From positions 1 to 28,200 of the IMG/VR virus record IMGVR_UViG_3300009182_000251: a DNA stretch of 28,200 nt; one strand, given 5' to 3'. Origin of the DNA: a virus. Below are positions 5,601-24,090 of this stretch, one piece after another (positions within the stretch are counted from its first letter, which is position 1; every line of letters starts with the position of its first letter). Position numbers and translations under genes: made by a program. A model generated the notes under the pieces. It was not told the origin of the DNA, did no database searches, and saw only the letters and a list, made by a program, of their open reading frames with translations.

Positions 5601-6422
5601 GAGATATACACCATGTTGGAAAACGAGAATCTTCACCAACAGTATTGGCCAGAACCCCATGACTGGGATATTGATCTAGAAGCTAACAAGACCAATTTCG
5701 TCAAGGGCATACTGGAAGCCATCAAGCTGGGCGAAGTCGATGAGGCTGTGCCGGCTGTGCACATGCTCAAGGATTATTGGCATGTCAATTGGCCAGAGCT
5801 TGATGTCATACTCAAGAGTGCCAATGCTATCAGGGCACAGGAGATTGATGAGCTACGTGGCTATCGTGCTGATCCCGTGTATCGTGCTGCCAAGCGAGAG
5901 TTCAAACCTCACAAGATGAAGACTCACAGCGAGCGCGACACGGCCATGGAAAAGCTCACTGACTACCTGGAGACACAGGGGTTCAAGCACATCGGTCAGG
6001 GTAGCTACAGCGAGATCTATCTCAAGCCAGGCTATCCATGGATGTTCAAGCTGTGGAGCCACGATCCCGCTTACCTATGGTGGATCACCTGGGCAGCCAA
6101 GCATCAGGACAATCCCAACGTGCCACGAGTCAAGGGCCTACCTGTGAAGATAGCACCAGACACCTATGTGGTACGATTGGAAAAGCTGCGCGGCCGCAGC
6201 CGCTATGATCACAAGCAGCTAGCCGACATGCTAGACGGTATTGAAACGGTTGATGACATCAGCAAGGAAGATCTGCAGTGGATCCGCAGGGAATATCCAG
6301 GCATCTATGATGCGCTGCGAGTGATACAGCGTGCTGGTAGCGATTTCGTGGTTGACCTGCACAGCGACAACATAATGATGCGCGGGCAGATACCGGTATT
6401 GGCTGATCCAGTAGTGGGCTGA
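2628..6422 (+). CDS. Giant WPELD-repeat protein with C-terminal kinase-like domain
   Basis: A protein of 1264 residues. The GTG start overlaps the preceding stop by 8 bases and has GGGAG 9 bases upstream. Motifs of the WPEL/WSEI/WKEL type lie near residues 132, 241, 350, 470, 574, 828, 891, 938 and 1055. The early ones are spaced 104-120 residues apart, as in the upstream gene. Near residue 602 the repeats are interrupted by a Cys/His motif (CSHPKGFSQKAHC) and a very basic tract. Residues about 1100-1264 resemble a small protein-kinase-like fold: a Gly-rich loop (GQGSYSEIY), a Lys in FKLW, a catalytic-loop-like DLHSDNIMMRG and a DFG-position DPV. Such C-terminal domains occur in marine phage proteins by my recollection. 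The His-x-Asp-Asn loop suggests nucleotide binding, but activity is not shown. Its stop abuts the stop of the opposing gene with no spacer. Function unknown. Confidence 0.9.
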   Translation: MAKVEQIMDELRAGLKAGNVHAVKRATNSILAMGLDPDLQLHAEQPLIERTLQILMRRGKEYQDSVHGPSQHFRTVAHIIDTLTPRDWPGIAKILEDNKHEIIRDLLLRMREGWTASALIAAKDLQRWGRRWPELATIARTALDDVDRVDESRDDYTPSTENLLRYLRQDLDKGDHDAALEIIGELAWPTHPSMDLSELLNSHKRGLMRAMLTTMSSNDSEGVQYIMPQYLGGFAKFGVHWPEFDTIERSVAAMGHEQRDAVDEDYALGEPAPQEINDLFEFLENSDGFNAVASLYRLADADLDPTYAEDIAPYKDLIIRGMLQWANEEPEWAPTVLTAIDTLRDIGLDWPELAAVSKSALSDFDQLTETNPVYAKQDAERAVRGISSNLEKMRRVGLQWEAYYQLIDALYGVLAVNRSYADMTTPVLEHYKTDILRTLLWSIKTSVEQGRHDMFMNSMFDAFDRARVNWPEIDAIKRSMRARAEQSAGIAESTMNPHQLRYITQTLDNHTPWKAANAMIQQGLRYDSNPEIKALWDANKDRTIIHMLKLIKADPNHTGVPLMIKDFKTIGLPWSEIDSIARSISVGIAEAWSKKYKRSINCSHPKGFSQKAHCAARRKRRAGGKTKSKSVGEAINPISDRGAIAYSPIHKPREPRKVEPAKLGVQVDVRREHPRDPDEYVYKKPKPKKTFSLDDELDEAIRGQHRWIQRVADNLAWDFEHNRDLEIGYTIQKLNQTDPSEVQEIFEPLAQSYADWFQRMVDANSVDFGLRELDRLLGYIREAYPQIIAAVEHNKTAIMRYLLTLVREEHHDLVKSRIALLRDLGADWKELNMITRSLLENEDPDKQQRSKAEARQTILDMFARDMAKNGDRGIYYVMYHMDDWGFKLADWPELLPLIDAHKHRIVSELLKTHRGDYGRNREGVRLSLDRMRRIGLDWPELDVIRKSLDAGERLNEDGDFEEIMEFLAGQMSDMSAFLEEGNDLWLVGVLSEIYTMLENENLHQQYWPEPHDWDIDLEANKTNFVKGILEAIKLGEVDEAVPAVHMLKDYWHVNWPELDVILKSANAIRAQEIDELRGYRADPVYRAAKREFKPHKMKTHSERDTAMEKLTDYLETQGFKHIGQGSYSEIYLKPGYPWMFKLWSHDPAYLWWITWAAKHQDNPNVPRVKGLPVKIAPDTYVVRLEKLRGRSRYDHKQLADMLDGIETVDDISKEDLQWIRREYPGIYDALRVIQRAGSDFVVDLHSDNIMMRGQIPVLADPVVG
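4431..4535 (+). other. Cys/His plus basic insert within repeat protein
   Basis: About residues 602-636 of the giant kinase-tailed protein. C-x-H and H-C pairs bracket a KGFSQKA core, followed by a run rich in Lys and Arg (ARRKRRAGGKTKSKS). The arrangement could bind a metal ion and nucleic acid. I recall similar short motifs in other marine phage proteins but cannot name the family with certainty. It separates two blocks of WPELD repeats. Confidence 0.5.
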
Positions 6423-6865: not shown

Positions 6866-7012
6866 TCATCGCATCCACTCTTTGTGATAGCGTATGAGCG
6901 TCTCTATGGTACGGTCGTCCAGCTGGGGCTCGCACATGGCAGCGATATAGATATCAGCGTCTAGATTGCGTGATGCGCAGTATTTTCGTGCTAATTCCAA
7001 CAGCTTTTCCAT
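6866..7012 (-). CDS. Small hypothetical protein (48 aa)
   Basis: A 48-residue soluble protein beginning MEKLLELARKYC. The start at 7012 is fixed by a strong AGGAG placed 6 bases upstream. The frame stays open further upstream, but that extension has a different, Arg/Ser-rich composition and overlaps a better gene on the other strand, so I excluded it. It is the first gene after a good sigma70-type promoter and so is probably expressed early by host RNA polymerase. It is mostly helical with two Cys. No family recognised. Confidence 0.75.
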   Translation of the reverse strand: MEKLLELARKYCASRNLDADIYIAAMCEPQLDDRTIETLIRYHKEWMR

Positions 7013-7034
7013 GAACTTCTCCTGTCTCAAGAAC

Positions 7035-7062
7035 ACATTAGCACAGAATACCTGCCTGTCAA
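7035..7062 (-). promoter_or_regulatory. Sigma70-type promoter, leftward
   Basis: Read on the minus strand: a perfect -35 TTGACA, a 16-base spacer, and TAATGT with an extended -10 TG one base before it. Transcription would start near 7028, about 16 bases before the 48-residue gene, leaving room for its AGGAG. This fits a host-polymerase early promoter for the three small leftward genes. Confidence 0.65.
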
Positions 7063-7090
7063 CCGATAATCTGTGCCAAAAACGCCGCGC

Positions 7091-7098
7091 GATAAATA
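7091..7098 (+). promoter_or_regulatory. Late-type promoter octamer GATAAATA
   Basis: Seven of eight matches to the T4 late octamer TATAAATA, 20 bases before the ATG at 7119 and divergent from the sigma70-type promoter at 7035-7062. It would drive the rightward membrane-protein block. Confidence 0.55.
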
Positions 7099-7118
7099 TC
7101 CGCACAGGGACTCGGATC

Positions 7119-7400
7119 ATGGATGAATACTTTAAGCTGGTTGGTGAGGTAGGTTTTCCCATGGCTGCTGCCCTGGGCGGTGGATATTTTGTGTTCCTCA
7201 CTCTGAAGTTCATACTAGCTGGTGTGATGAGCTCAGTCAAGGGTCTAAGCGGTATCATCATAGCACTGGACAATCGTGTAAAGACCATGAACCACGATGT
7301 GATACGCATTGACACGCTGATGAGCAATGCACTGGGAGTGAGGCCAGACATCGAGCGCATAGCACGCGCTGATGGCAAGAACGATGCTAGGCGGGATTGA
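7119..7400 (+). CDS. Small membrane protein, paralogue 1 (93 aa)
   Basis: Ninety-three residues. A short amphipathic start (MDEYFKLVGEVGFP) leads into a hydrophobic stretch (about residues 14-36) and then a charged helix ending in a basic/acidic tail. The ATG at 7119 has GGGA about 8 bases upstream. The plan and the motifs (GFP near residue 12; a later I-I-A-L-D-x-R and M-N-x-D-x-I-R) match the protein at 7523, so the two look like diverged duplicates. A short N-terminal anchor followed by a cytoplasmic helical tail recalls phage holin-like or YvrJ-like small membrane proteins, but this is inference. The next gene starts three bases after its stop. Confidence 0.78.
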   Translation: MDEYFKLVGEVGFPMAAALGGGYFVFLTLKFILAGVMSSVKGLSGIIIALDNRVKTMNHDVIRIDTLMSNALGVRPDIERIARADGKNDARRD

Positions 7401-7403
7401 AGA

Positions 7404-7514
7404 ATGATGTCCAACCAGCGCCTCGGACTTTTACTGTTATTCTTCCTGGCAGCCTACTTTGTGCTGGGTAGTAGCCTAGCCAGAGACGAGCTGCTTTGGC
7501 TAATGGCTCACTAG
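7404..7514 (+). CDS. 36-residue single-helix membrane peptide
   Basis: Starts ATG-ATG three bases after the previous stop and ends at a TAG nine bases before the next start. The peptide is a polar N-end (MMSNQRLG), one hydrophobic helix (about residues 8-24) and a short charged end (ARDELLW). It could also be read as a signal sequence with an SLA cleavage site. The Shine-Dalgarno match is weak, so translation is probably coupled to the upstream gene. Position and length fit a phage membrane peptide such as a holin or lysis accessory, but nothing proves it. Confidence 0.55.
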   Translation: MMSNQRLGLLLLFFLAAYFVLGSSLARDELLWLMAH

Positions 7515-7522
7515 GATCTAAC

Positions 7523-7948
7523 ATGGATATAGCTGCAACCATCAACAAGTATGGTTTCCCAATAGTTGCTGCCGGAGGCCTCAGCTACATAATCTACTAC
7601 ATCTGGCGCTGGGCCACCATGGAGATCAAACCCATACTCAGCGAAGCCAACGGCGTTCTCATCGCGCTGATCGACCGCATACGCATGCTAGACAACGATC
7701 TCATACGATTGAACCAGAAGCTGAACATAGTGCTGCAGCTCAGAGGCAAGGAGATCGAAAGCGAACGGCATCTGCATGATGTCAAGACCACAGCTGAGGC
7801 ACAGAAGCGCGAGCTGGAAGCAGCATCGCAGCAGAAGAAAGCCGCAGAAGAGCTGGCCCACGGCAAAGTACCAAGGACCAGGAAGAAACGCACGCCGATC
7901 AAGGACCAGGACAGCGATTCCAAGGAAGCTGCCAGCGGCAGCAGCTGA
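7523..7948 (+). CDS. Membrane-anchored coiled-coil protein, paralogue 2 (141 aa)
   Basis: The ATG at 7523 is preferred over an in-frame TTG at 7496 because AGGA lies 6 bases upstream and the TTG falls inside the previous small gene. The order is: amphipathic N-end with YGFPIVAAGG, one membrane helix (about residues 12-28), a conserved-looking helix with ALIDRIRMLDNDLIRLNQKL, then a Lys/Glu/Ala-rich coiled coil (about 75-115) and a basic then acidic tail. I recall proteins with a very similar first 70 residues in marine T4-like phages, usually unnamed. It resembles the 93-residue protein two genes upstream. A role in lysis or membrane tethering is inference only. Confidence 0.82.
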   Translation: MDIAATINKYGFPIVAAGGLSYIIYYIWRWATMEIKPILSEANGVLIALIDRIRMLDNDLIRLNQKLNIVLQLRGKEIESERHLHDVKTTAEAQKRELEAASQQKKAAEELAHGKVPRTRKKRTPIKDQDSDSKEAASGSS

Positions 7949-8555: not shown

Positions 8556-10592
8556 TCACTTGGTGTTGGTGCGGTATACGGTGTCCCAACCTTCGCCCGG
8601 TGGATTAGCAGCTAAGTCTGTGCAGCGTTCTATCCACATATCATAGTAGCCATCCATTTGCCCACCAAACTTGCCCTTGAGTTCTATGCAGGCCATGATA
8701 GCACCTTTGAACCTCTGCGCACGGTAATCTGCTATCATGTGCAGGTGTTTGATCTTAGCTTCCTCGTCTCGCACGGTCAACACCGTGTGTATGTTCACGC
8801 CTTCCCGCTTGCCCTTTACAGCGATGCAGTCCAGAGGCAGCGTGAAGAAATCCTGCTTGACGTGGTCGTTGGTGCGATCCCCTATGACCATAGCAACATG
8901 ATAAGGCTTAGACTGGCCTTCCAGACGGCTTGCCAAATTAACAGCATCACCCAGGCAAGTGTAGTCAAAGCGCTGCTCACTGCCCATATTACCAACAACG
9001 ACGACCCCGGTGTTAATGCCCAGGCCCATACCAAAAGGAGGAACGCCTTCCGCAGTGACTTCGGCATTGAACGCAGAAAGGCTATCCAACATCTCCAGGG
9101 CCGTTCTAACCGCGTTCCTCGCGTGGTCTGGATCATCCAACGGAGCATTCCAGAATGCCATCTGCGCATCGCCGATATACTTGTCCAGAGTACCCTCATT
9201 GTCCAATATCTTCCTCGTCATGGCCGTCATGTAGCGATTCATTATCCGGGTCAGCCCTTGGACGTCGCTGCCATAATGCTCGCTGATAGAAGTGAAGCCC
9301 CTGACATCTGTGAACATGATCGAAAGCTCACGTGATTCCCCTCCCAGCTTGAGCAGGTCTGGATTCTCCTGCAGCTTCTCTACCATCTTTGGGCTCAGGT
9401 ATGTGCCAAACTGCTTCTTGATCTGCTGCTTCTGTAGGAACTCGCTGACAAACTTCACCACGTAGGCATGCAGAGCGACCACAATGCTGCCTGCTGTAAT
9501 GGCAGTAGCGTCCCATAATAGTCTATGCTCACTATAACCCCAGCGGCTACCCATAATGCTAGCGAACACCACCACAACCATCGTTCCAATGCCCACATAG
9601 GTCCACCTCGCCATTGCTGTCAATATGATACCGGCTGTTGCCAGTGCCAAGAGTTCCCCACCATCTGACCAATCTGGGCGCTGTATGTTGACCTTGTTGA
9701 TCATGGTACCCAGCACAGCTGCTTGAACATCCTGTGGCCACACTGCTCCGATGGCAGTTGACACCGGATTGCCTATGCCTGCTGCGCTCACGCCAACGAT
9801 GACCACAGCACCATGTAGATCGTCGGGCAGCTTGGTGATGCTGTAGTGCTCACTGTGCTGGCTCCAATCAATCCATATGCGCCCGAGACTGTCAGTGGTC
9901 ACTGGACCAAACTTTGGTATGCGCATCTTGTCGATACCAAGCTCGCTCAGCTTGACCTGCACTGTGCTGTCCTTGGCCAGCACACGCAGCGTCTCCATGC
10001 CTAGGCTGGGATATATCTTGCCGTCCACAGAGATCACCAAAGGCACCCTGCGATTCACACCATCTATCTCTGGCAGGGTGTTCACTGTGCCCACGCCCCA
10101 GGCTGGCGCTTCCAGCTCTGGTATGTTGGCTATCAGTCCAGGATAGTGTATGATCCTATCACCAAACTGGCTGTTGATCACTGCGCTGCCAGGCTTCCTT
10201 GGGCTGTTCTTGGTCACAGCAGCAGGTATGTTGCTGAGGATCGTGGGATGATCTTTCAGTGTTTCTGACAGCTGAGCATCGCCGCCAAAGCGGTCAGACT
10301 CGGGCATGAGCACGTTCCATACCACCAGTCCTGCGCCATGGGCATAGATATCCTTGATGATGTCAGCATACACGGTGCGTGGGAAGGGCCACTGTCCATA
10401 CTTGTCCAACGCAGCTTCGTCTATGTTGACCACAGCTATGTTGTTTGTGTGCACAGGCTGGCCAGTGATCAGAGTGTCAAAGTATCGCAACCTCACACTC
10501 TCCACGAAGCTGGGATCAGCTGCACGCAGAGCTATCATGACCGCAAGTGTTATCAGCGCCGTCCACGGCGATAGCACAATCTTCTTGAGCAT
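8556..10592 (-). CDS. CHASE2-domain class III adenylate cyclase
   Basis: A 678-residue membrane cyclase predicted to make cAMP in response to a signal sensed outside the inner membrane. An N-terminal helix (about 10-27) is followed by a CHASE2 domain (about 30-310, with VVNIDEAALDKYGQWPFPR and the TVNTLPEIDGVNRRVPL region), membrane helices between about 312 and 382, the usual linker (FGTYLSPKMVEKL), and a class III cyclase domain (about 420-610). Catalytic positions look intact: metal Asp 429 (FTDVRGF) and 475 (IGDAQMAF), substrate Lys 471 and Thr 545, and Asn 552 and Arg 556 (VNLASRLEG). Lys/Thr favours ATP over GTP and fits class IIIb. A tail of about 70 residues follows. It is the last gene of the leftward curli block. 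Bacterial CHASE2 cyclases often sit beside FecR-domain genes, as one does here. It has no Shine-Dalgarno site; TAAATA lies four bases before ATG. The domain call is very secure. Confidence 0.96.
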   Translation of the reverse strand: MLKKIVLSPWTALITLAVMIALRAADPSFVESVRLRYFDTLITGQPVHTNNIAVVNIDEAALDKYGQWPFPRTVYADIIKDIYAHGAGLVVWNVLMPESDRFGGDAQLSETLKDHPTILSNIPAAVTKNSPRKPGSAVINSQFGDRIIHYPGLIANIPELEAPAWGVGTVNTLPEIDGVNRRVPLVISVDGKIYPSLGMETLRVLAKDSTVQVKLSELGIDKMRIPKFGPVTTDSLGRIWIDWSQHSEHYSITKLPDDLHGAVVIVGVSAAGIGNPVSTAIGAVWPQDVQAAVLGTMINKVNIQRPDWSDGGELLALATAGIILTAMARWTYVGIGTMVVVVFASIMGSRWGYSEHRLLWDATAITAGSIVVALHAYVVKFVSEFLQKQQIKKQFGTYLSPKMVEKLQENPDLLKLGGESRELSIMFTDVRGFTSISEHYGSDVQGLTRIMNRYMTAMTRKILDNEGTLDKYIGDAQMAFWNAPLDDPDHARNAVRTALEMLDSLSAFNAEVTAEGVPPFGMGLGINTGVVVVGNMGSEQRFDYTCLGDAVNLASRLEGQSKPYHVAMVIGDRTNDHVKQDFFTLPLDCIAVKGKREGVNIHTVLTVRDEEAKIKHLHMIADYRAQRFKGAIMACIELKGKFGGQMDGYYDMWIERCTDLAANPPGEGWDTVYRTNTK

Positions 10593-10604
10593 GCGGTATT
10601 TAAC
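10590..10604 (-). promoter_or_regulatory. TAAATA-N4-ATG start element of the cyclase gene
   Basis: GTTAAATA, four bases, then the ATG at 10592. It is one of three genes in the window with this spacing and no Shine-Dalgarno site. It may be a late-type promoter for the cyclase or a translation signal. Confidence 0.35.
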
Positions 10605-10609
10605 CTAAG

Positions 10610-10732
10610 TCAGAGATCCAGTGCTTGGCATACAGCAGCCACGCAGATCAAAGCAAACATGGTACCGAGGAATATCGCAGCGTCTATGGGTAGCCTATAG
10701 CCATAGGCCCAGATGTCGTGCACATTATACAT
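10610..10732 (-). CDS. 40-residue membrane peptide
   Basis: A short gene beginning MYNVHDIWAYGYRLPIDA, with one hydrophobic helix (about residues 17-37) containing two Cys. The start is supported by AGGAG eight bases upstream, which overlaps the TAG stop of the preceding gene. It ends 17 bases before the cyclase start. It probably sits in the inner membrane and may be a small partner of the cyclase or of the secreted protein upstream. No homologue recognised. Confidence 0.7.
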   Translation of the reverse strand: MYNVHDIWAYGYRLPIDAAIFLGTMFALICVAAVCQALDL

Positions 10733-10743
10733 CGCGTTATCTC

Positions 10744-11145
10744 CTATTGAAGCAGACAGATAGCAGTGTCGTCGCTGAACACGTAGCGTATCTTGCTGAT
10801 ACCGCGATACCTACAGGTCAGCTGATCAGTCTTGACGCTGCCAGACCACAGGATGCGATCCTGCCACGGGGATCTGTGCCAGGCACCATCATTCCAGCTC
10901 CAGCCAGTGGTTCGCCTCTCGACACGCGGTAAGTCCATGACCCAGCGCTCCATGTTGCTATCGATGGTTATCTCGGTGTGATTGGCTGTGGTTTCGACCA
11001 AGCATTGGCGAAATCTCACGTAGGCAAAGCCGTTTGAATCGCGCTCGCTCACATCGCAGGCCACGCTGCGGCTGGCCGTGGCTACCGGGGTGGCCAGCAC
11101 CAGCAGTGCGGCAGTCAACCATGCTAGCCTATCGACCGACGACAC
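10744..11145 (-). CDS. Secreted small Cys protein (133 aa)
   Basis: The GTG start at 11145 overlaps the upstream gene by 17 bases; an in-frame TTG nine codons later is an alternative. Either gives a signal peptide with a hydrophobic core (LTAALLVLATPVATA). The mature part of about 105 residues has four Cys (VAC, RQC, LTC and AIC), enough for two disulfides, many beta-prone stretches and several Trp. It is probably a small periplasmic beta protein. Its place in the curli/FecR/cyclase block suggests it belongs to the same envelope system. I recognise no family. Confidence 0.75.
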   Translation of the reverse strand: MSSVDRLAWLTAALLVLATPVATASRSVACDVSERDSNGFAYVRFRQCLVETTANHTEITIDSNMERWVMDLPRVERRTTGWSWNDGAWHRSPWQDRILWSGSVKTDQLTCRYRGISKIRYVFSDDTAICLLQ

Positions 11146-11644
11146 TCTTCAATCCGGGCACTATCTGTGCTAGGCTGTGATAGGTCTGGTAATCGCTGCC
11201 GCTGATGATCACGCCAAACACAAACAGGCCCAGATAGATCATGGCTGGCAGTCCAAGGAACACTATCACGCAGGCCCAAAATATCTGTGATCTTTCTTCA
11301 GATCTTTCCCTGGCCAAGCGCTCTGCGCGTTTCCTAGCCTGTTCTGCGTCTATCTTTGACTGCTTGAATGCTGCTCTCTGGGCAGGAGTCATGCGAGCCA
11401 GCATATCTGCCTCTTGTTCAGCAGCTATCTCACGCATGGCCTGCTCGCGCAACATGTTGTTGTTGCGGATGATCTGGTTGTTTATCTCTGTGATCTTGTT
11501 CTTGTTTATGACTTTTTGAGTGTTGGCAGCCTTCTGTGCCGGCGAGTTCTTGATGACGTCCACGATCCCAAACACCGAATCGGTAAGGACCTCGCCCCAG
11601 GCTTGCCCAAGCTTCTGGGCCTTCTTGGGATCCATGTCAATCAT
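11129..11644 (-). CDS. Coiled-coil protein with C-terminal membrane helix (171 aa)
   Basis: The ATG at 11644 has a perfect AGGAGG six bases upstream. Residues about 1-120 are a long charged helix rich in Gln, Ala, Arg and Glu (probable coiled coil) without a signal peptide. A strongly hydrophobic region of about 25-30 residues follows (FWACVIVFLGLPAMIYLGLF), then a short tail. The likely topology is tail-anchored or hairpin, with the coiled coil in the cytoplasm. It is the first gene after an AT-rich gap that may hold an internal promoter of the curli/cyclase block. Function unknown. Confidence 0.82.
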   Translation of the reverse strand: MIDMDPKKAQKLGQAWGEVLTDSVFGIVDVIKNSPAQKAANTQKVINKNKITEINNQIIRNNNMLREQAMREIAAEQEADMLARMTPAQRAAFKQSKIDAEQARKRAERLARERSEERSQIFWACVIVFLGLPAMIYLGLFVFGVIISGSDYQTYHSLAQIVPGLKSVVGR

Positions 11645-11713
11645 GGATAACCTCCTAAAAAAAATGTATAAAAAATAACTATAGGTACTTAAATCACAGC
11701 TATTTAGCAGAAA
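11645..11713 (-). promoter_or_regulatory. AT-rich intergenic gap, possible internal promoter
   Basis: This 69-base gap is clearly richer in A and T than its surroundings. Read leftward it holds GCTAAATA (11701-11708, six of eight to TATAAATA), a TTTAAG-17-TATACA pair as a weak sigma70 candidate, a run of eight T, and the AGGAGG of the next gene. It is the only real gap inside the nine-gene block, so it may let the downstream four genes be transcribed separately. Confidence 0.4.
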
Positions 11714-12280
11714 TTAATGTTTGACATAGCTGTAGCCCTTGCAGCTACCAGTGTAGCAGCTGATGCTCATTTTGGCAGCGTCGGGGGTTGTGAGATTGTC
11801 CTGCACCACCGTGGCTCCGATGTTGCTGCCACTGAGCTGCAGCACAAAGCTCTTGTCTGCTCCAACACTGCCGCGCTGCATGATGCTGGCGGTGTTGTTG
11901 CTGTTTGACACTGGATCGCTCATGACCACGCTGGCTCTGTGATTGCCGTCGCCGGTCTGCAGTATGGTTATGTCGTTGCCGCTGTTAATGCTGTTTGAAG
12001 CCACCATGCCATCAGCGCCAACCGTGGCCCTGTGATCTCCACGGTCATGCTGCAGTATGGTGATGTTGTTGCTATCGCCGTGAGTGACGATCATAGCCTG
12101 TTGGTTACCAGAATCCACCTGCTTGACATAAGCAGTGTTGTTGTCACCTATCTGCTCTATGTAAACGAACTTGGAATTTGCCGCAGGCATGGCCACAGCT
12201 GGGCCAGTGCCGGCAGCACCCACTGTCTGTGCTGCTGCAGTTGATCCAAACAGCAAAAATGCTATCAGTGTGCGTATCAT
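11714..12280 (-). CDS. Exported curlin-repeat protein B
   Basis: A 188-residue protein with an N-terminal signal peptide, cleavage likely after AAA at residue 17. From about residue 40 it carries curlin-like units with the spaced Gln, Gly, Asn and Gln pattern: VYIEQIGDNNTAYVKQV, then NITILQHDRGDHRA and DITILQTGDGNHRA. The repeats are looser than in E. coli CsgA/CsgB. The C-terminal 15 residues end in CYTGSCKGYSYVKH, a Cys pair and basic tail unusual for a curlin; this could be an anchor or cap, as CsgB's C-terminus anchors E. coli fibres. Its ATG shares four bases (ATGA) with the FecR gene stop, so the two are translationally coupled. Substrate of the CsgG pore by inference. Confidence 0.82.
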   Translation of the reverse strand: MIRTLIAFLLFGSTAAAQTVGAAGTGPAVAMPAANSKFVYIEQIGDNNTAYVKQVDSGNQQAMIVTHGDSNNITILQHDRGDHRATVGADGMVASNSINSGNDITILQTGDGNHRASVVMSDPVSNSNNTASIMQRGSVGADKSFVLQLSGSNIGATVVQDNLTTPDAAKMSISCYTGSCKGYSYVKH

Positions 12281-13407
12281 CTGCTCTGTGATATCCTTAT
12301 GATGCTGTTGCCTCCGCCGTTGACGCGCTGGTTCAGTGTGTACTGGTCCTGCGACAGCGACAGCAGCGAGTTCTGATCTTTGTCCAAGGTCACTTCAGCA
12401 TAGCTTGATGTACCATTGCGGTAGAGCACCAGCTGGTTACCCATGATGATGTAGTTTAGACCGCTGGCCTTCTTGTATCCTGGCAGCAGCCCTTCGTTAG
12501 CAGCTATCTTGAGCATGTTTTCCAACAGCTCTGCGTTCAGCAGGTCCAGCATGTTGGCCAAGAACTGCTGACTGAGATAGTCTATGTCTAAGCGAGATCC
12601 AGCTGCTGTCAGTAGGTTGATATTGAGATCATCAAACTTCAACAGATCAGCATCAAGATAGTTGATATCCAGCGCGGTTTTCATGAGATGCTCGCTGCTG
12701 TGAGCAGCAGCTTCCCTGGGCGGTGTCAGTATCAACATGTTGTTGATCTGGCTGGGATCCAGCTTGAGTATCACGCTCTTGGCTGGATTGGCTTCTCTGC
12801 TCTTGGTCACCGTGGCTTGGAATGGTTGATCAAGCACTTCCTCACCCGCATCAGTGGTCACTATGATCTTGCCTGTCTTGCAGTCTCGCTCCACGTTCTT
12901 GAAACCCACTGGGCAACTTGGTAATAGGATGATGAGGCTGCGTCCCAGCTCATCGACGGTCATGCTAAAGTCCGTGCCGCGCACGCCTATGGTTGCCGTT
13001 GGTGTCTCGATCTTCACGCTGGCAGGGTTGTCCTTGGCTATCTGGCCGCTGGCATAGCGTGCAGTACCCAGCGCCATCTTGATGGCCAGCTTGCCAGTGT
13101 CCTTACCGGACGCAGGATCATAGACAAACTCATCTATGACCATCTTGCTCTGTTCGTTGATCTCTACCTTGGTATCATCCTCGAAGGTGATGCCAACACG
13201 AGCTCTAGCAGTGACCACGGCGTCATTCATCTCCACACGGGTGTTTACGGCACTGGGTATGCTGTTCTTGTCGCGCTGGATCTCAGCCAGTCCGGTCTGT
13301 TCTGTGACAGAACCTATGGCTGCGGTCGCATCAGTTGCCGCTGATAACAGATATAGTGTTATTGCTGCCAACGCTAGTGATGTTAACCTTGCTGTCCACT
13401 GTGCCAC
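12277..13407 (-). CDS. Exported FecR-domain protein
   Basis: A 376-residue protein. A hydrophobic signal sequence ending near DATAA (residue 30) is followed by a FecR domain (about 33-150) finishing in the hallmark TPTATIGVRGTDF. C165 and C176 could form a disulfide. The C-terminal half is rich in Leu, Asn and Asp (DINYLDADLLKFDDLNINLL) and ends in a beta-prone tail. It has no sigma-factor-binding or transmembrane anti-sigma part, so it is a periplasmic or surface FecR protein rather than a classic iron-dicitrate regulator. The GTG start at 13407 lies inside the curlin A gene. No in-frame Met follows until residue 60, so an overlap of the signal peptide with curlin A seems unavoidable; an internal TTG near 13374 is another candidate. 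FecR proteins often sit near CHASE2 cyclases, as here. Confidence 0.9.
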   Translation of the reverse strand: MAQWTARLTSLALAAITLYLLSAATDATAAIGSVTEQTGLAEIQRDKNSIPSAVNTRVEMNDAVVTARARVGITFEDDTKVEINEQSKMVIDEFVYDPASGKDTGKLAIKMALGTARYASGQIAKDNPASVKIETPTATIGVRGTDFSMTVDELGRSLIILLPSCPVGFKNVERDCKTGKIIVTTDAGEEVLDQPFQATVTKSREANPAKSVILKLDPSQINNMLILTPPREAAAHSSEHLMKTALDINYLDADLLKFDDLNINLLTAAGSRLDIDYLSQQFLANMLDLLNAELLENMLKIAANEGLLPGYKKASGLNYIIMGNQLVLYRNGTSSYAEVTLDKDQNSLLSLSQDQYTLNQRVNGGGNSIIRISQSR

Positions 13408-14026
13408 TCTGAGCCACTCCCACTGTGTTGCTGCTACCTGTCAGTGCCACTGTAGCTTCGAAGCCATTTAATCCAGCTGGACCGTGCTGCGTCACAGTCA
13501 CGGCATTGTCGCTGCCAGTGGCTGTGATGGTGCTGCGTGCGCCCAAGAGGTTGCTGGTGATGCTGTCCGTGTGCAGGGTGTTGCGGTCGCCAGTGACTTC
13601 AGTGCTGTGCGTGCTCTTGCTGCCAGCATTGATACCAATGTCGTTGTTGCTGCCAGTGATGTTGGCCGTGATGTTGCTGTCAGCACAGGCACTGGCCTTG
13701 TTCACGCTGCCGCTGCCGCAGTCGATGTTCACTGTGTTGGTATTGCCCGTGACAGTGCTCTGCACCGTGGTGCCAGCACCCTGAACGTTCAGTGCTGCGG
13801 TGTTCACAGCTCCTATCTGTGACACGGTTATTGATTGATTGTTGCCATGCAGTATAGCTGCTGCGGCGCTGTCGCCTACTGCGTTGTCACCACCTGATTG
13901 CGTGACGCTGATGTTGCTGTTGTTGCCAACTTGGTCTATGTAGACCTGGTTACCAGCTGCTAGTGCTCCACTTGCTGCTAGAACCGACATCGCTGTTCCC
14001 ATCAACAGCGACTTCAAACGTAGCAT
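13331..14026 (-). CDS. Exported curlin-repeat protein A
   Basis: A 231-residue protein. It has a signal peptide with cleavage after ALA (residue 23), then the unit QVYIDQVGNNSNISVTQSGG, a close match to the curlin repeat. More degenerate Asn/Ser/Thr/Gly-rich units follow (SITVSQIG, AVTVTQHGPAG, TVGVAQSG, TISVISGN). The middle (about 85-160) is rich in T-G-N-x-N turns and has two Cys. It is expected to be exported through CsgG and to form an amyloid-like beta solenoid. The ATG has AGGAG and GGGAG just upstream, a strong ribosome site suggesting high expression. It follows csgG by 37 bases and overlaps the FecR gene at its 3' end. Whether it is the major or nucleating subunit cannot be told. 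Confidence 0.88.
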   Translation of the reverse strand: MLRLKSLLMGTAMSVLAASGALAAGNQVYIDQVGNNSNISVTQSGGDNAVGDSAAAAILHGNNQSITVSQIGAVNTAALNVQGAGTTVQSTVTGNTNTVNIDCGSGSVNKASACADSNITANITGSNNDIGINAGSKSTHSTEVTGDRNTLHTDSITSNLLGARSTITATGSDNAVTVTQHGPAGLNGFEATVALTGSSNTVGVAQSGTVDSKVNITSVGSNNTISVISGN

Positions 14027-14063
14027 ACTCCCTCTCCTCAGGTGCCCTCGCCGGGGTCACACA

Positions 14064-14927
14064 TCATTTCGTGTCTGGGCCCTTGGCTGGCAATGCCTTG
14101 GCCGGTGTTGGTTTAGCAGCTGATGCGGGTCTCGGTGCGTATTCCCAGAGCTGCTTCTTGATCCCTTGCTGTATCATGTCTACCACAGCTGCTTCAGTGG
14201 CCAAGCGCACGGAGTAGGTAGTTGGTTCGTTCTGTGCCGAACCAGCTTCCATCTGCACGCTCATGGTACCTGCGTCCACGAAGGTGAACACGTTGGCATC
14301 GCTGCCTTGGCTGTATATGGTCTTGGTGGCTCCTGCGCTGACCAGGACTTCACCGGTCTGCACGCTGATCAAACGTATGACCACGGTGACCACGTCAACC
14401 CTGTAGTTGATGTCTGCGCCTATGCCCAGCAGCTTGGCACCCATTCCACCACTGATGGTGTCAGCGTCATAGCCAACGATGCCACCTTCCAGCATCACGC
14501 CTGCTACCAGCATGGGACTCAGCTGCTTGGCATCCTTGCCCTCATAGGTCTCACGTTGGTTGCGTATCAGCTGTCGTTCCTTGATCAGATCATCCAGTCC
14601 CACACGTTCTACCACCTGGAACCACTTGCCGTTACCCGCGTCCTGCAGCGCCTTGATGAGGAACACTTCTGCGCCCTGTGTCACGGCACTGCTGAGCACT
14701 GAGAACTTGTCATTGGGCTTGCGCTGTCCGGTCTTGTCGTTGAAGCTATACACAGCTATGGTTATGGGAGGGCCGTTAGGACCCTGCATGCCGTAGAGGC
14801 TGCTGACGTTGCTGCGCTTTAGGATCTGCGGTGTGGCACTGACCACTGACGGATCGATGGCCTTGTCACTCATGCAGCCGCTCAGCAGCGTCAATCCTGC
14901 TGCTGCTATCATCTTGCCTATCTTCAT
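14064..14927 (-). CDS. csgG: CsgG-type outer-membrane curli secretion lipoprotein
   Basis: A 287-residue protein. The signal peptide ends in a lipobox LSGC, with the acylated Cys at residue 18. The body follows E. coli CsgG closely in order: VYSFNDKTGQRKP, VERVGLDDLIKERQLIR, EGGIVGYDADTISGGMGAKLLGIGAD (quoted here in two parts: EGGIVGYDAD and TISGGMGAKLLGIGAD), then TGEVL, SNEP-like QNEPTTYSVR and a terminal LWEY. CsgG forms a nonameric outer-membrane channel exporting unfolded curlins. The segment matching the pore-constriction loop lacks the E. coli Tyr-Pro-Ala-Ser-Asn order and reads NDKFSVLSS, so channel gating may differ. A tail of about 20 residues rich in Pro, Ala and Lys follows the family end. 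Its ATG overlaps the csgF stop by one base. Confidence 0.95.
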   Translation of the reverse strand: MKIGKMIAAAGLTLLSGCMSDKAIDPSVVSATPQILKRSNVSSLYGMQGPNGPPITIAVYSFNDKTGQRKPNDKFSVLSSAVTQGAEVFLIKALQDAGNGKWFQVVERVGLDDLIKERQLIRNQRETYEGKDAKQLSPMLVAGVMLEGGIVGYDADTISGGMGAKLLGIGADINYRVDVVTVVIRLISVQTGEVLVSAGATKTIYSQGSDANVFTFVDAGTMSVQMEAGSAQNEPTTYSVRLATEAAVVDMIQQGIKKQLWEYAPRPASAAKPTPAKALPAKGPDTK

Positions 14928-15379
14928 CAGAACTTGAAACTCCCCATGGGTACAGTGATATCAGTCTTGTTACCAGTCTCATCTATCACTGTGAGCGATA
15001 TGGTACCCGCAACCGTGTCCTTGATCCAGCTGATGGTGCTGCCTTGGAAAGCCATGGTACCGGATGTGCTGCCATCGCTGAACATGGCATTGCTGAGCTG
15101 CAAGCTCAGCTGTGCGTAGATGCGAGATTCTAGATTGTTCATGAACTTGCTGAGATTGGTGTTCTGTGCCGCAGCTTTCGCAGCGTCAGCTTCGGCTTTC
15201 TTCTGTGCTTCTTGGGCCTGCCTGCGGCTGAATTCCAAGTTTTCTATGGTCATAGCTTGGCTGCTCCAAGCAGCTGGGTCGTCACCAAACGCAGGATTCT
15301 TGAAACCATAGGTTATCTGTCCAGCCAATGCGCTGGATGACAACAGCGTGAAAACCAGAGCAAACAAGCGTGTTTTCAT
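14927..15379 (-). CDS. csgF: CsgF-type curli assembly protein
   Basis: A 150-residue protein. I chose the ATG at 15379, with GGGGGA about 8 bases upstream and a clean signal peptide (cleavage ALA|G at 19/20); an upstream in-frame ATG at 15406 lies inside the promoter octamer. The mature N-terminus GQITYGFKNPAFG matches the CsgF peptide that inserts into the CsgG pore. An Ala/Lys/Gln-rich helix (about 50-75) and a beta-rich C-terminus (TISLTVIDETGNKTDITVP) follow, as in the family. In E. coli CsgF couples secretion to nucleation at the surface. It is first in the block and its stop overlaps the csgG start. No csgE or csgD is seen in the window. Confidence 0.94.
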   Translation of the reverse strand: MKTRLFALVFTLLSSSALAGQITYGFKNPAFGDDPAAWSSQAMTIENLEFSRRQAQEAQKKAEADAAKAAAQNTNLSKFMNNLESRIYAQLSLQLSNAMFSDGSTSGTMAFQGSTISWIKDTVAGTISLTVIDETGNKTDITVPMGSFKF

Positions 15380-15405
15380 GGTAATTCCCCCAAAGAACGC
15401 GCTCA

Positions 15406-15413
15406 TATTTATA
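15406..15413 (-). promoter_or_regulatory. T4-late-type promoter TATAAATA of the curli block
   Basis: A perfect TATAAATA on the minus strand, 26 bases before the csgF ATG. In T4 this octamer, read by a phage sigma-like factor, is the whole late promoter and starts RNA a few bases downstream. That would give csgF a leader of about 20 bases including its ribosome site. Similar octamers at 7091 and 17881 support a shared late class. Confidence 0.68.
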
Positions 15414-15438
15414 CAGATGCTGGATTTTCAAGCATCTG
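15414..15438 (-). terminator. 8-bp hairpin between hydrolase gene and curli promoter
   Basis: A perfect inverted repeat: CAGATGCT (15414-15421), a nine-base loop, AGCATCTG (15431-15438). It begins nine bases after the hydrolase stop and ends directly at the TATAAATA. There is no T-run after the stem on either strand, so it is not a canonical intrinsic terminator. It may be an mRNA-end or processing hairpin, or an insulator. Confidence 0.45.
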
Positions 15439-15447
15439 GTGTGCTGG

Positions 15448-16008
15448 TCATCCTATCTCTGCCATGAATCGTCTGACTGCTGCTACCGTGTCATCCATGA
15501 GCATGATCTCAGCATGGTTGGCATCCAGCTCTATGGTCTTTCCTGCAGCCCAGCTCCTCTGGCTCTTGAGCGTGACCACGCCATCATTGGGTTCGTACAT
15601 GTAGGGATTAAAACCCACGGTGCTCAGCAGATGCTGCACTGGTTGAGCATATGTGGTCCGGTGCAGCCGCTGCATGAATGTGCTGCGATGTGCCACTTCA
15701 TTGATGAATCCGCTGCGAGTGAGATAGGCCTGCAGGGCATTCACGCTTAGTCCGTCCAAGGGCGTGGCTATGGTGGTGATGCTGATCACGTTGGGATTGT
15801 CAGCCAGTGCCAGTGCGATCAACCCACCCATGCTGTGTCCTATCACATGGCTGGGTCGATCTATCACTGCTCGAGCACAGATGTCATCTACTCCGTTGAC
15901 ATCATTGTGATAGTCTAGGAAATGCCAGTCATGCTCATTCAATCTTGAACGCAGATAGTTGAATATGACCGGCGTGCTGAAAGCACCGTGTATAGCGAAT
16001 ATGTCCAT
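15448..16008 (-). CDS. Alpha/beta hydrolase, lipase/esterase-like (186 aa)
   Basis: A 186-residue single-domain hydrolase. IHG near residues 6-8 can supply the oxyanion hole, GHSMGG places the nucleophile Ser at 59, and the likely acid and base are Asp 142 (PNDGVV) and His 165 (NHAEIM). A full catalytic triad is therefore present. There is no signal peptide, so the substrate is cytoplasmic, or the enzyme reaches lipid after lysis. It begins seven bases after the polymerase stop, without a Shine-Dalgarno site; TGTAAATA lies four bases before ATG and overlaps that stop. The substrate cannot be read from sequence; acyl esters or phospholipids are guesses. Confidence 0.88.
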   Translation of the reverse strand: MDIFAIHGAFSTPVIFNYLRSRLNEHDWHFLDYHNDVNGVDDICARAVIDRPSHVIGHSMGGLIALALADNPNVISITTIATPLDGLSVNALQAYLTRSGFINEVAHRSTFMQRLHRTTYAQPVQHLLSTVGFNPYMYEPNDGVVTLKSQRSWAAGKTIELDANHAEIMLMDDTVAAVRRFMAEIG

Positions 16009-16020
16009 CAGCTATTTACA
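16006..16020 (-). promoter_or_regulatory. TAAATA-N4-ATG start element of the hydrolase gene
   Basis: TGTAAATA contains the TAA stop of the polymerase gene and ends four bases before the hydrolase ATG. There is no Shine-Dalgarno site. It is the third case of this geometry in the window. Confidence 0.35.
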
Positions 16021-17779
16021 GGCGCTTGCAGCTCCATTTGGTTACTCTGATGGTGCGATTGTTGTCTCTGATGTCGATCTCACCCACGCCTTCCACCATG
16101 TCAAACCTGCTCAGAGGCACACCACAGGGGAAGATCAGCTCGTGGAATTCTCGCCTATCTGTGCCCAGAGTGCAGAAGGTGATGTAGTCCTTCTTGCCCC
16201 GGACCCAGCCGCGGCAATACATGCGATGCGCAGCTACCAAACCAGAAAACGTGATGGTCCTGCCCAGTTCCGTGCTATAGCAGCCGGGCATGAACTCGTC
16301 GTGAGTCCAGAAGCCTCGTTTTCTCATCTGATCAGCATGGCTGTCAAATATGGGAACCTGCCAGTCTGCGTTGCGCAAGGTGTTGCCATCCACTCGCCAT
16401 GGTCGTTTGTTGCCTTCGATTCGCCAGCCTGCGGCCTTGGCCTGCTCCATGTGCACCCAGGGCCTGTACATGCTGTTGTTGTTTTCCAGCGTGCTCAGCC
16501 AGAACGCCTGTGGGTTGTGCACCTTCTCATAGGCCAAGCCCCAGATCAGGTTGGCCAAGTTGATGGCGTGTGCTTTACACAGACCAAAGCCGCCCATGTT
16601 GCCGAACAATTCCATGATTAGTTCCTTGCGAGGGCTTGAACCAATCCTCTGCAGGAAGTCCAAGCACAGTTCTTCGTTGCCCTTGATGAAGCCTCGGCGA
16701 TACATGTCAGCTGTGTAGGCATCGCAGCCCAGTTCTTCCATGATGAGGTTGATGGCATCTTCGTCGAAGATCAGACCATTCTCATACTTGAGATCACCAT
16801 AGGGCGCATCATTGCTCATGAGATCTCTGAAGAACACGCCCTTGGTGCGACCAGTCATGGCCGCAGGACGTATCAGCGCCGTGGCTATGGTTAGGTCACG
16901 CTTGTTCTTGACCTTGAGCGCTCGCAGGGTCCTTCGCATCACAGGACTTTCGCCCTGGCACACGCCCAGCGTGTCACCACGTGACAGCAGCTCTGCTGTG
17001 GCCTCATCCTCGTCTGGATAGTCCATGGGATGGCGACCGCTGATGTCAATGAGCTGTGCCAAGCCACGATTGCTGAGCACGTCTATCTTGAGGAATGCTA
17101 GGTCCTCGCACTCATTCTTGTCCAAGAGGATTTGGTTGTCCTGCCGTATCAGGCTGGCAGGCGGTGCGCGATCAAACACCACTATGCCTCCCGGATGCTT
17201 GCTGATGCAGCGCTTCTTGCCTATGAGCTTGGCAGTGAGCTTGCGCCATTCCTCCTGCTGGTGCTTGGGAACCAGCTTGGCGATGTCCTGGCTACCGGGT
17301 ATCTTGCCCTTGTGGCCAGTGATGCGCTTGAGGCTTTCCTTCTGTGCCGTGCGTTCTCGGAATCGCACGTAGTTGCTGAGGCGTGCGCTCTTGCCTGGCC
17401 ACTTCTTGTAGATGCGCTCCATGACTTCCTTGTGATAGTAGTAGGGAAAGTCTATGTCCACGTCTGGTAGATCGTCTCTGAATGGATTGAGGAATCGTGC
17501 CAAGGGTATGCGCTCTTTGACAGGATCCACGTCAGTGATTCCCAGCAGATAACAGACTAGACTGCTGCCTGCGCTGCCTCTGGTTATGTGTGGTATGTCT
17601 CGGGTAAGTTCAAGGACGTCTAGCACTCTGATGAAGTGCTTGGTGAAGTTCTGCTCGCTTATTATCTCAAGCTCTTCTGCTAATCTCTTGTCGTAAGCCT
17701 CATCCTCGGGTATGTCTCTTACGAATCTCTTGCTTAGTTCTATCCAGTTAGTGCGTTGTATGTTCACTGTGGTCGTCAT
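16016..17779 (-). CDS. PHP-less DnaE-type (family C) DNA polymerase
   Basis: A 587-residue replicative-type polymerase, about half the length of bacterial DnaE. The ATG at 17779 has GAGG eight bases upstream. Conserved landmarks: TRGSAGSSLVCYLLGITDVD (residues 67-86), RFLNPFRDDLPDVDIDF with catalytic Asp 106 and 108, HPGGIVVFD (about 195-203), FLKIDVLSNRGLAQL with the third catalytic Asp 233, and GGFGLCKAHAINLANLIWGL in the fingers region. A C-terminal OB-fold-like segment (SGLVAAHRMYCRGW onward) ends the protein. The N-terminal PHP domain (about 280 residues in E. coli) is missing, and I see no clear beta-clamp motif or tau-binding domain. It is a catalytically plausible minimal family C enzyme, probably a phage replicase or specialised polymerase. 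It is co-transcribed with the hydrolase. Confidence 0.94.
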   Translation of the reverse strand: MTTTVNIQRTNWIELSKRFVRDIPEDEAYDKRLAEELEIISEQNFTKHFIRVLDVLELTRDIPHITRGSAGSSLVCYLLGITDVDPVKERIPLARFLNPFRDDLPDVDIDFPYYYHKEVMERIYKKWPGKSARLSNYVRFRERTAQKESLKRITGHKGKIPGSQDIAKLVPKHQQEEWRKLTAKLIGKKRCISKHPGGIVVFDRAPPASLIRQDNQILLDKNECEDLAFLKIDVLSNRGLAQLIDISGRHPMDYPDEDEATAELLSRGDTLGVCQGESPVMRRTLRALKVKNKRDLTIATALIRPAAMTGRTKGVFFRDLMSNDAPYGDLKYENGLIFDEDAINLIMEELGCDAYTADMYRRGFIKGNEELCLDFLQRIGSSPRKELIMELFGNMGGFGLCKAHAINLANLIWGLAYEKVHNPQAFWLSTLENNNSMYRPWVHMEQAKAAGWRIEGNKRPWRVDGNTLRNADWQVPIFDSHADQMRKRGFWTHDEFMPGCYSTELGRTITFSGLVAAHRMYCRGWVRGKKDYITFCTLGTDRREFHELIFPCGVPLSRFDMVEGVGEIDIRDNNRTIRVTKWSCKRL

Positions 17780-22700: not shown

Positions 22701-24090
22701 GCCTGCATCTGGGACCATCACGGCCAGCACCGACGGCGGTAGTGTTTATATAAACGGTGGGACCCCTGACAATCCCAGCACCGGCAGCGAAGGCCGCGTG
22801 AATGTGACAAGCAACCTCAGTGTGGCCAGCGTAGAGCCCTACAATTACGGCAGGGATCTGCTGCTACGTAATCAAAACAGCTACTTCAACTTCAACAACC
22901 AAAGCACAATCAGCAGCCCAGGCAGCACTCAGTTCACACCCTATGACATAAATCCCAGTGGCCCCGACATCAACTGGACCAACAGCAGCCCGTTCAGCAA
23001 CGTTGTGACCAGCAACGGCAGCATCAACAGCGTATACAACCAGCGCACCAACCTAGAACCGCCCATGCCAGCCATACGGCAGGGCGCTTACACCATCAGC
23101 TTGTGGTTCAATTCAAGATATACAGCTGGCCCCAATACGCTGCTGGGCGGCGACAATGGTAGCCTCAATCTGATCAGCCAGAATCTCACAGATCTGATAG
23201 TAACCACCGGCGATGCAAACACAGCAACAGGGTTTGGTTTCCCTGCCCAGCTAACCCCAAATCAGTGGCACTACTTGGTGGTGACCAGGGATGATCAGCA
23301 TCGCTGTGCGGCATGGCTCAACGGTGAGTATCTGCAGAATGGGGTCATTGGTTACAACCACGGCATAGACATCAACGACTACACGGTTCCAATCACCTAC
23401 CTATGCGCAGGGGGATACTACGGCACCGCATTTGATGGCGTGATCACTGACGTCAAGATTGACAATGTGAACCTATACAGCACCTGGGGACCGGGTGTAA
23501 CCGGCAACATACAAGTGCCAACCACACCAGCTGTGGCAGGATTCAGCACGCAGGTGCTGCTCAGCGCCACAGACAGCGACAATGTGTTTGTGAACAGTGC
23601 CAACACAGTGATATACACGCCGTTTGCCATAGCCAGCGCAGGCACAGAGCTCAGCATCAACTCCAACGGCAGCATTGGCTTACCAGGCACCAGGTTTGGC
23701 AACATCAGCATCAGCGGCACGGTTACCACGGTGGGCGGCCTATATCCTGCCTGGGCACTGCCCAGTGAAAGCGTGTACATCTGGCATGCCAGCAGTGCCG
23801 ACGTGCGTGGGTTCAAGATGACCGTGCGAGCACAGCACAATGATCCCTGCACCTGCCTCGAGATGGCCGACATCACCTGCGCATATGACGCGGTGGGCGG
23901 CTTGGTGTACAGCGTGGGCAACAGGGTCAAGAGCAATCAGGGTGCCACAGACACGGTGTTTGGCGTGCTCATAGACTATGACATCGTGCCTGGTGAATAC
24001 CTGCTGGTAGTCACGGCCACCGTGGGCAGCACAGACACGGTCTATTTCACATACGAGGTCACGGAGTTCATGACCACCCATGCCACATAA
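19702..24090 (+). CDS. Giant fibre/adhesin with collagen stalk and three LamG-like domains
   Basis: A 1462-residue protein. The N-terminal head resembles the preceding fibre protein ([25 protein letters not shown]). A segment common in phage fibres follows ([20 protein letters not shown]), then a short collagen-like rod (about 93-175). Three concanavalin/LamG-like domains lie near residues 296-430, 786-930 and 1115-1270. Each has a variant of the strand TLSFWIYRR / TVSLWIQLY / TISLWFNSR and the later W-x-x-x-x-x-x-x-x-D-x-x-x-x-x-W-L motif. A Gly-rich stretch of parallel-beta type lies between domains 1 and 2 (about 570-630). LamG folds bind glycans, which fits host recognition. The C-terminal 100 residues hold two close Cys ([11 protein letters not shown] region). 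No signal peptide. It is a probable tail-fibre or tail-associated adhesin. Confidence 0.9.
20072..20221 (+). repeat. Perfect 75-bp tandem duplication in collagen rod
   Basis: Bases 20072-20146 and 20147-20221 are identical by eye, and six further bases match at the start of a third copy. The unit is 25 codons, in frame, encoding a [12 protein letters not shown]-type block. Complete identity at all codon positions points to recent duplication or active length variation of the fibre stalk. Confidence 0.92.

Follow-up and report, generated by a model that had tools for sequence, protein, structure and literature searches.

The window analyzed here is the whole 28,200-base IMG/VR virus record IMGVR_UViG_3300009182_000251 (51-61% G+C per kilobase), in which a leftward run of genes at 8556-15413 encodes the curli proteins CsgF and CsgG, two curlins, a FecR-domain protein, a CHASE2 adenylate cyclase and two small open reading frames (ORFs). 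An earlier note on this DNA, made from the sequence alone, had named these genes apart from the two small ORFs, which sit between curlin B and the cyclase and were absent from its list. Pfam confirmed each of the named genes, all on the minus strand within 8556-15406. From right to left, the features of the run are as follows.

15406-15413, minus strand: T4-type late promoter box TATAAATA (motif scan of the window)
14927-15406, minus strand: csgF (Pfam CsgF, 2.5e-17)
14064-14927, minus strand: csgG, the outer-membrane curli pore (Pfam CsgG, 3.4e-48)
13331-14026, minus strand: curlin A (Pfam Curlin_rpt, 7e-7, two stretches; relatives have it at the same position)
12277-13407, minus strand: FecR-domain protein (Pfam FecR, 2.4e-10)
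11714-12280, minus strand: curlin B (Pfam Curlin_rpt, 1.6e-8)
11129-11644, minus strand: 171-aa ORF with a hydrophobic stretch at its C-terminus (ORF list)
10744-11145, minus strand: 133-aa ORF with a signal-peptide-like start, judged by eye (ORF list)
8556-10592, minus strand: CHASE2 adenylate cyclase, class III (Pfam CHASE2, 6.9e-38, and Guanylate_cyc, 3.5e-20)

Neighboring ORFs overlap by 1 base (csgF/csgG), 77 bases (curlin A/FecR), 4 bases (FecR/curlin B) and 17 bases (the two small ORFs). The likelier start of csgF is the ATG at 15379, which follows GGGGGAA; the ATG at 15406 overlaps the promoter box. CsgG, CsgF and the two curlin-repeat proteins all score above the Pfam cut-offs, which places the run among curli, or type VIII secretion, systems, and residues 10-264 of the window's CsgG align with solved CsgG (E 8.8e-43). 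At the level of genes, this bears out the earlier proposal of a CsgG/CsgF pore that comes with its own curlins. Both curlins have signal-peptide-like starts (by eye), and curlin A matched no solved structure at E <= 1. Compared with E. coli csgBAC/csgDEFG, CsgG and CsgF are homologous along most of their length and the curlin repeats are shared, whereas the phage records have no CsgE match (0/22), an added FecR protein and CHASE2 cyclase, and a late phage box in front. Residues of the CsgG constriction loop were considered as a hallmark of the phage proteins and rejected, since cellular CsgG proteins also vary there.

We are highly confident of these gene identities and of the phage location of the module. 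The window itself has fibers and a PolIII-alpha-type polymerase, and no capsid or terminase family was found among its scanned ORFs (Pfam/PHROGs), as might be expected if a bacterial chromosome or plasmid had been miscalled as viral. That explanation is extremely improbable given the window's relatives. Across 15.3 kb, a 37-kb contig matches the window at 97.8%. The longer contig G042 (183 kb), which carries locus L085, is syntenic with the window, with 68-77% DNA identity over stretches that hold the cyclase, FecR, csgG, csgF and left-flank genes. When 26 of the larger ORFs of G042 were compared with PHROGs, the best 25 of 37 families included a terminase, tail sheath, UvsX, DnaB-like helicase and ribonucleotide reductase; for 30 further ORFs pooled from G042 and two shorter relatives, the best 25 of 77 families included rIIA/rIIB, baseplate and tail-fiber families. 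Genes for the gp23 capsid protein lie on module contigs of 364, 344 and 278 kb, and a large-terminase domain on contigs of 344, 278 and 191 kb (3/50 records in each case, many records being fragments). The same gene order is present in the cultured phages Melnitz and HTVC008M, the second curlin of HTVC008M being annotated as hypothetical. Phage-type FecR or cyclase genes were not found (E <= 1e-3) within ~9-10 kb on each side of six alphaproteobacterial curli loci (L106 and L133-L137; 0/6) or of the cellular locus L107, nor near the cellular locus L108 on the one side that could be seen. The phage origin put forward in the earlier note, which had called for a search for capsid and terminase genes, is thus upheld by the syntenic relative, by gp23 on three module contigs and by the full set in two cultured phages.

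Relatives were gathered by scanning viral contigs with a three-sequence CsgG profile (349 relatives, the best 80 kept), with the window's CsgG (17 loci) and with the window's polymerase (3 loci). The final set of 97 CsgG loci includes the window and the two cultured phages and leaves out three copies of the window's locus. These loci were selected by CsgG similarity, and in 51 of them, representing 44 distinct CsgG proteins, the sequence continues for 8 kb or more downstream of csgG. The FecR and cyclase profiles match in every one of these 51, the FecR match being weak (68-82 bits) in L090, L091, L094 and L095, and in 46 the cyclase lies downstream on the same strand. The gene order of the module is therefore not due to chance. 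In a CsgG tree with 78 viral and only 8 cellular rows, and several long branches, all viral rows stand apart from the cellular ones (branch support 100/96). One sub-clade (99/97) holds the window and all five jumbo-labelled long contigs, another (96/92) holds HTVC008M and Melnitz, and eight viral rows fall outside both. The gp23 proteins of two module contigs are 69-77% identical to those of PA5oct, Vibrio 2.275.O and Sinorhizobium Phosso, and the G042 terminase shares 54% identity with its counterpart in the Pseudomonas jumbo phage PA5oct; PA5oct, Vibrio 2.275.O and Phosso are not themselves among the seven records matching the window's CsgG. Judged from these comparisons, the module is also present in environmental jumbo phages related to PA5oct, and the window's CsgG belongs to that clade.

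The perfect TATAAATA box at 15406-15413 is the window's single TATAAAT[AG], both strands counted, and its position directly upstream of csgF is that expected of a T4-type late gene. Boxes with at least 7/8 matches were counted in distinct upstream regions (-60 to +5), with expectations taken from 16,688 other windows. Against these expectations, which are rough because the loci are related, the start codons come from an ORF finder and the csgG comparison lies in coding sequence, such a box was found in 44/71 csgF upstreams (4.5 expected), in 0/73 csgG upstreams, the comparison set (4.8 expected), in 14/70 FecR upstreams (4.6 expected) and in 22/59 cyclase upstreams (3.6 expected). A perfect box preceded csgF in 18 cases (0.31 expected), and exact TATAAAT[AG] occurred between -150 and +40 of csgF in 21/71 (1.5 expected). 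A gp55-like late sigma factor was matched in five of 12 records (G006, G011, G016, HTVC008M and, weakly and with internal stops, G022), and 15 late promoters have been counted in Melnitz (PMC9004378; this and the other articles are cited from excerpts). On this motif evidence, late expression of the module is probable, and because the promoter is of the late type, a late-stage role is favored over an early one. Sigma-70-like promoters numbered 13 in the window compared with 9.1 +/- 3.1 expected, and they were not used.

The FecR-domain protein has a hydrophobic N-terminal segment, a FecR domain at about residues 32-201 and a C-terminal six-strand domain at 317-374. Its structural model (51 rows, mean pLDDT 81.5) has an N-terminal helix, the FecR domain, a middle part that is modelled poorly and, at the C-terminus, six strands, and it matches the PupR signalling domain (Z 15.2, root-mean-square deviation 2.7, 134 residues). 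As modelled, the protein would share the signalling-domain fold of the FecR/PupR anti-sigma regulators, from which it differs in having an extra C-terminal domain and a model without the cytoplasmic anti-sigma part. Since that part is missing from the model and only the FecR domain scores above the Pfam cut-off, the protein was not assigned to the FecIRA-type anti-sigma regulators; neither a sigma factor nor a TonB receptor was found among the scanned ORFs of the window. Modelled alone (pLDDT 89.7), the C-terminal domain again consists of six short strands, and its best structural match had a Z of 3.4, with no curli structure among the matches listed.

In a set of 60 distinct viral FecR proteins, the window's and those of the two cultured phages included, Gln374 is invariant (60/60). 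The pattern [NST]x[AILVF]x[AILVF]xQ occurs in the last 30 residues of all 60, compared with 11/587 body windows and 4.3 expected after shuffling. The same terminal pattern was found in 28 of 1043 other ORFs, and 25 of these 28 are curlin A; the tails of many further curlin A proteins, the window's included, are similar without having the exact pattern. A profile comparison of the FecR tail with the curlin A tail (the curlin set being without six deep-branching loci) scored 18.8, against 8.3 +/- 1.8 for 60 column shuffles (maximum 14.5) and 10.4 for the reversed tail. The FecR tail is read as a curlin-like terminal strand, not as a curlin domain, and the chance that FecR binds curlin is about even. 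In 7 of 59 loci, some of them close relatives, the FecR stop and the cyclase start overlap as ATGA, which supports FecR and the cyclase acting together. Of 289 Alphaproteobacteria, 98 have a FecR match at E <= 1e-10, and among the matches listed these end by profile position 215 of 373; when 30 alphaproteobacterial FecR loci were rescored, the match of L143 extended to position 280 and the others to 215 at most. A curlin solenoid was also considered as a possible fold of the C-terminal domain, which in the model has six short strands and no match at Z >= 5.

The presence of a CHASE2 domain and a cyclase domain with catalytic residues places the last gene of the run among class III CHASE2 adenylate cyclases; the earlier note had called it a CHASE2 adenylate cyclase. 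The two metal-binding Asp, the Lys and the Arg of the catalytic site are kept in 54/54 aligned cyclases. Asn552 of the window is replaced by Ser in 25/54, and the residue at the purine site varies (D in 26, T in 17 and S in 11 of the 54).

Thirteen distinct loci (L007, L008, L009, L011, L014, L015, L017, L024, L027, L036, L037, L055 and L066) have an outer-membrane-type protein of 499-1445 aa, with a signal-peptide-like start, between FecR and the cyclase. When 12 of the 13 proteins were scanned with hmmscan, either whole or as the last 300 residues, the Pfam autotransporter beta-domain PF03797 was found in eight, one of them below the cut-off; the domains of L008, L014, L017 and L027 appeared in the scans of the last 300 residues, that of L014 being the one below the cut-off. 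No autotransporter domain was found by hmmscan in L011, L036, L037 or L055, and L011 has one in the genome search only. Two of the inserted proteins carry F5/8 type C domains, and a profile built from the full 13 matches EstA, an autotransporter (E 9.8e-6). Across 22 phage records, 10 have one autotransporter domain each (nine over the cut-off), all 10 inside inserted proteins, and none was found in the window copy (G001), G042, Melnitz or HTVC008M. In the phage collection, relatives of the L009 inserted protein were found only in two Synechococcus phages. Other insertions were observed as well: a ~160-aa family with a (V/M/L)IDP start and a hydrophobic C-terminal segment lies between FecR and the cyclase in L030, L044, L048, L055 and L066, and in L070, a pelagiphage-type locus, a 1446-aa protein without a Pfam match (12914-17251) separates FecR from a 117-aa curlin-like gene.

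The phage-borne module is known in kind, and the jumbo branch is a new phage lineage for it. The earlier note had supposed the full set to be unreported, which is wrong: CsgF, CsgG, CsgA/B, FecR, a second CsgA/B and an adenylate cyclase are described for podo- and myo-pelagiphages (PMC9599517, 2022), and the set is present in HTVC008M and Melnitz. The window shares the csgF-csgG-curlin-FecR-curlin(-like)-cyclase order of these two phages, but its CsgG falls in the separate jumbo-phage clade, it has two extra ORFs, no histidine kinase was found among its scanned neighbors, and some of its relatives have an autotransporter. The two extra ORFs (171 and 133 aa) matched nothing in Pfam or PHROGs at E below 0.05, and no relatives of theirs were evident by eye among the neighbors of the other loci. 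Beyond pelagiphages and the methylophage Melnitz, for which competing ideas exist (sibling capture, superinfection defense, import and lysis; PMC9599517, PMC7029224 and PMC9004378), curli pore genes are also reported from contigs of temperate sediment viruses, where the excerpt names only csgGF and neither FecR nor cyclase (PMC9636769). In Campylobacterota, a FecR-domain protein is likewise encoded near a CHASE2 cyclase, in a cluster that has a phosphodiesterase and a TPR protein where the window has curli genes and a curlin-like FecR tail (PMC9239204). The excerpts of PMC9599517, PMC7029224, PMC9004378 and PMC9636769 make no mention of module-bearing jumbo phages, autotransporters, a late box at csgF or the FecR tail. 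The late box, the curlin-like FecR tail and the autotransporter partner in relatives are thus features beyond these accounts as excerpted, and the jumbo-phage branch extends the full module beyond phages of streamlined ocean bacteria.

Our preferred reading, held tentatively and with a little less than even confidence, is that the window carries a type VIII secretion (curli) module which is adapted to phage use and includes its own sensor, from a jumbo-type T4-like phage. Late in infection, the CsgG/CsgF pore would be placed in the host outer membrane, and the curlins would be exported through it and polymerize on the infected cell's surface. The curlin-like strand at the C-terminus of FecR may bind periplasmic curlin or be caught at the base of the pore or fiber, and the FecR domain would then report the state of the curlin to the periplasmic CHASE2 domain and so set cyclase activity. 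Such late surface remodelling might make the infected cell or its debris adhesive and help progeny to meet new hosts; this adhesive purpose is possible rather than likely. Late surface remodelling would be a shared theme because related jumbo phages add an autotransporter. The late box indicates the last stage of infection, and the curlin-like FecR tail together with the FecR-cyclase gene coupling offers a link from amyloid export to the cyclase that is concrete and can be removed.

Several results weigh against this reading. No box at the level of at least 7/8 was found in 27 of the 71 csgF upstreams, the box counts come from related loci with a comparison set inside coding sequence, and in the window's long relative (L085 of G042) the box is a 7/8 match at -23, not a perfect one, with no gp55 match in the 183-kb G042 record. 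The likeness of the FecR and curlin tails was noticed first and then tested on the same sequences, HHalign gives it a probability of just 44%, Pfam Curlin_rpt matched 0/60 FecR proteins at E <= 1, and the modelled C-terminal domain had no PDB match at Z >= 5. FecR proteins and CHASE2 cyclases had been described as frequent neighbors in bacteria; they do cluster in Campylobacterota (PMC9239204), but no cyclase was found beside any of 30 cellular FecR loci of Alphaproteobacteria, in flanks of at most ~1.5 kb on each side. CsgE, the gate/adaptor of the E. coli system, had no match in any of 22 phage records, many of them fragments; membership among curli systems stands because CsgE is a non-essential part, and systems without it are discussed in PMC7029224 and PMC9599517. 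In Melnitz, no clumping of infected cells was seen (PMC9004378, in the part excerpted). As for a receiver of cyclic AMP (cAMP), a cyclic nucleotide (cNMP)-binding domain was found in none of 16 phage records and in only five of 118 SAR11-family genomes (the family of G053, a metagenome-assembled genome of an uncultured Candidatus Pelagibacter), which may be incomplete, so that 113 lack it; class III cyclases were found in three of the 118, two over the cut-off. The claim in the earlier note that the phage rewires cAMP is therefore unsupported for SAR11-type hosts, where cAMP receptor domains are so scarce; in the window's own host, cAMP signalling may still occur. With these domains scarce in SAR11 relatives, the purpose of the cyclase becomes a testable question. 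A bolder version is doubtful: the phages would have invented an amyloid-export sensor, in which FecR mimics a curlin strand, reads export or its backup and drives the CHASE2 cyclase, whose signal would pass through a non-classical receiver because the classical one is lacking in most SAR11-type hosts; with the autotransporters added in jumbo phages, late surface remodelling would span distant phage groups.

Other explanations draw on the same evidence. The CsgG/CsgF pore could serve in lysis, as a gated hole in the outer membrane that would open late and help to set off lysis, with the other genes carried along or controlling the gate. This has been proposed for Melnitz with structure models (PMC9004378), and it agrees with the late-type promoter before csgF and with the lack of a CsgE match in 22 records, so that the pore may be open. 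We nevertheless consider it unlikely, as the pore is accompanied by curlin-like genes, FecR and the cyclase in most of the long-enough loci although a bare pore would need none of them, and autotransporters are added in some relatives; moreover, PMC9004378, as excerpted, counted curlins as missing, yet the Melnitz record annotates a curlin-repeat gene on either side of FecR. Surface amyloid might instead coat the infected cell and block superinfection by other phages, for which the pore and curlins are present. Superinfection exclusion usually acts early, and the late box before csgF would come late for it. This role, although suggested for pelagiphages (PMC9599517), therefore seems quite unlikely.

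Export of the curlins to virions, or their assembly with virions as fibers or decorations, is very unlikely, although the late box and the collagen-like fibers among the neighboring genes would suit it and the module adjoins tail and baseplate genes in Melnitz and HTVC008M. The signal-peptide-like starts of the curlins (by eye) point to the periplasm, whereas the assembly of tailed virions is cytoplasmic, and in Melnitz and HTVC008M the neighboring tail genes are encoded on the other strand from the module.

Several loci depart from the common arrangement. A deep-branching viral group (L089, L090, L091, L094, L095 and L097) has weakly FecR-like proteins of ~715 aa or more, with the cyclase upstream on the opposite strand in four of its loci; Pfam found no FecR in L090. 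A CsgF match was found in only 7 of 385 alphaproteobacterial genomes. Phage-type csgF and csgG are also present on four short contigs (<10 kb; L102-L105) binned to Rhodobacteraceae, Pirellulales, Pelagibacter and Flavobacteriaceae, together with FecR and cyclase in L102, the same in L105 with the cyclase in two pieces, and part of FecR in L104; these may be mis-binned phage pieces. An unannotated 1499-base record of Salmonella phage S.Kent 1-2-1 (OR851715.1) encodes CsgG and may be host DNA.

The window has no tRNAs and no Rfam match, an upstream riboswitch like that reported for the Melnitz tmRNA having been sought. The flanks of the module are as the earlier note described them, with small phrog_18771 proteins on the left and a lipase-like ORF, the PolIII-alpha-type polymerase and collagen-like fibers on the right. 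Two members of phrog_18771, a family without an assigned function, form an adjoining pair on the plus strand (6966-7400 and 7496-7948), and a protein resembling this pair (by eye) adjoins the cyclase in L065 (13656-13979). Farther left, the plus-strand stretch 35-6422 encodes two large proteins, of 866 and 1264 aa, that have a recurring WPEL-type motif (by eye) and no Pfam match, and the C-terminus of the 1264-aa protein has a weak protein-kinase-like match (phrog_15752, E 3e-4). On the right, a fiber protein encoded on the plus strand at 19702-24090 has a collagen-like start and three Laminin_G_3 matches.

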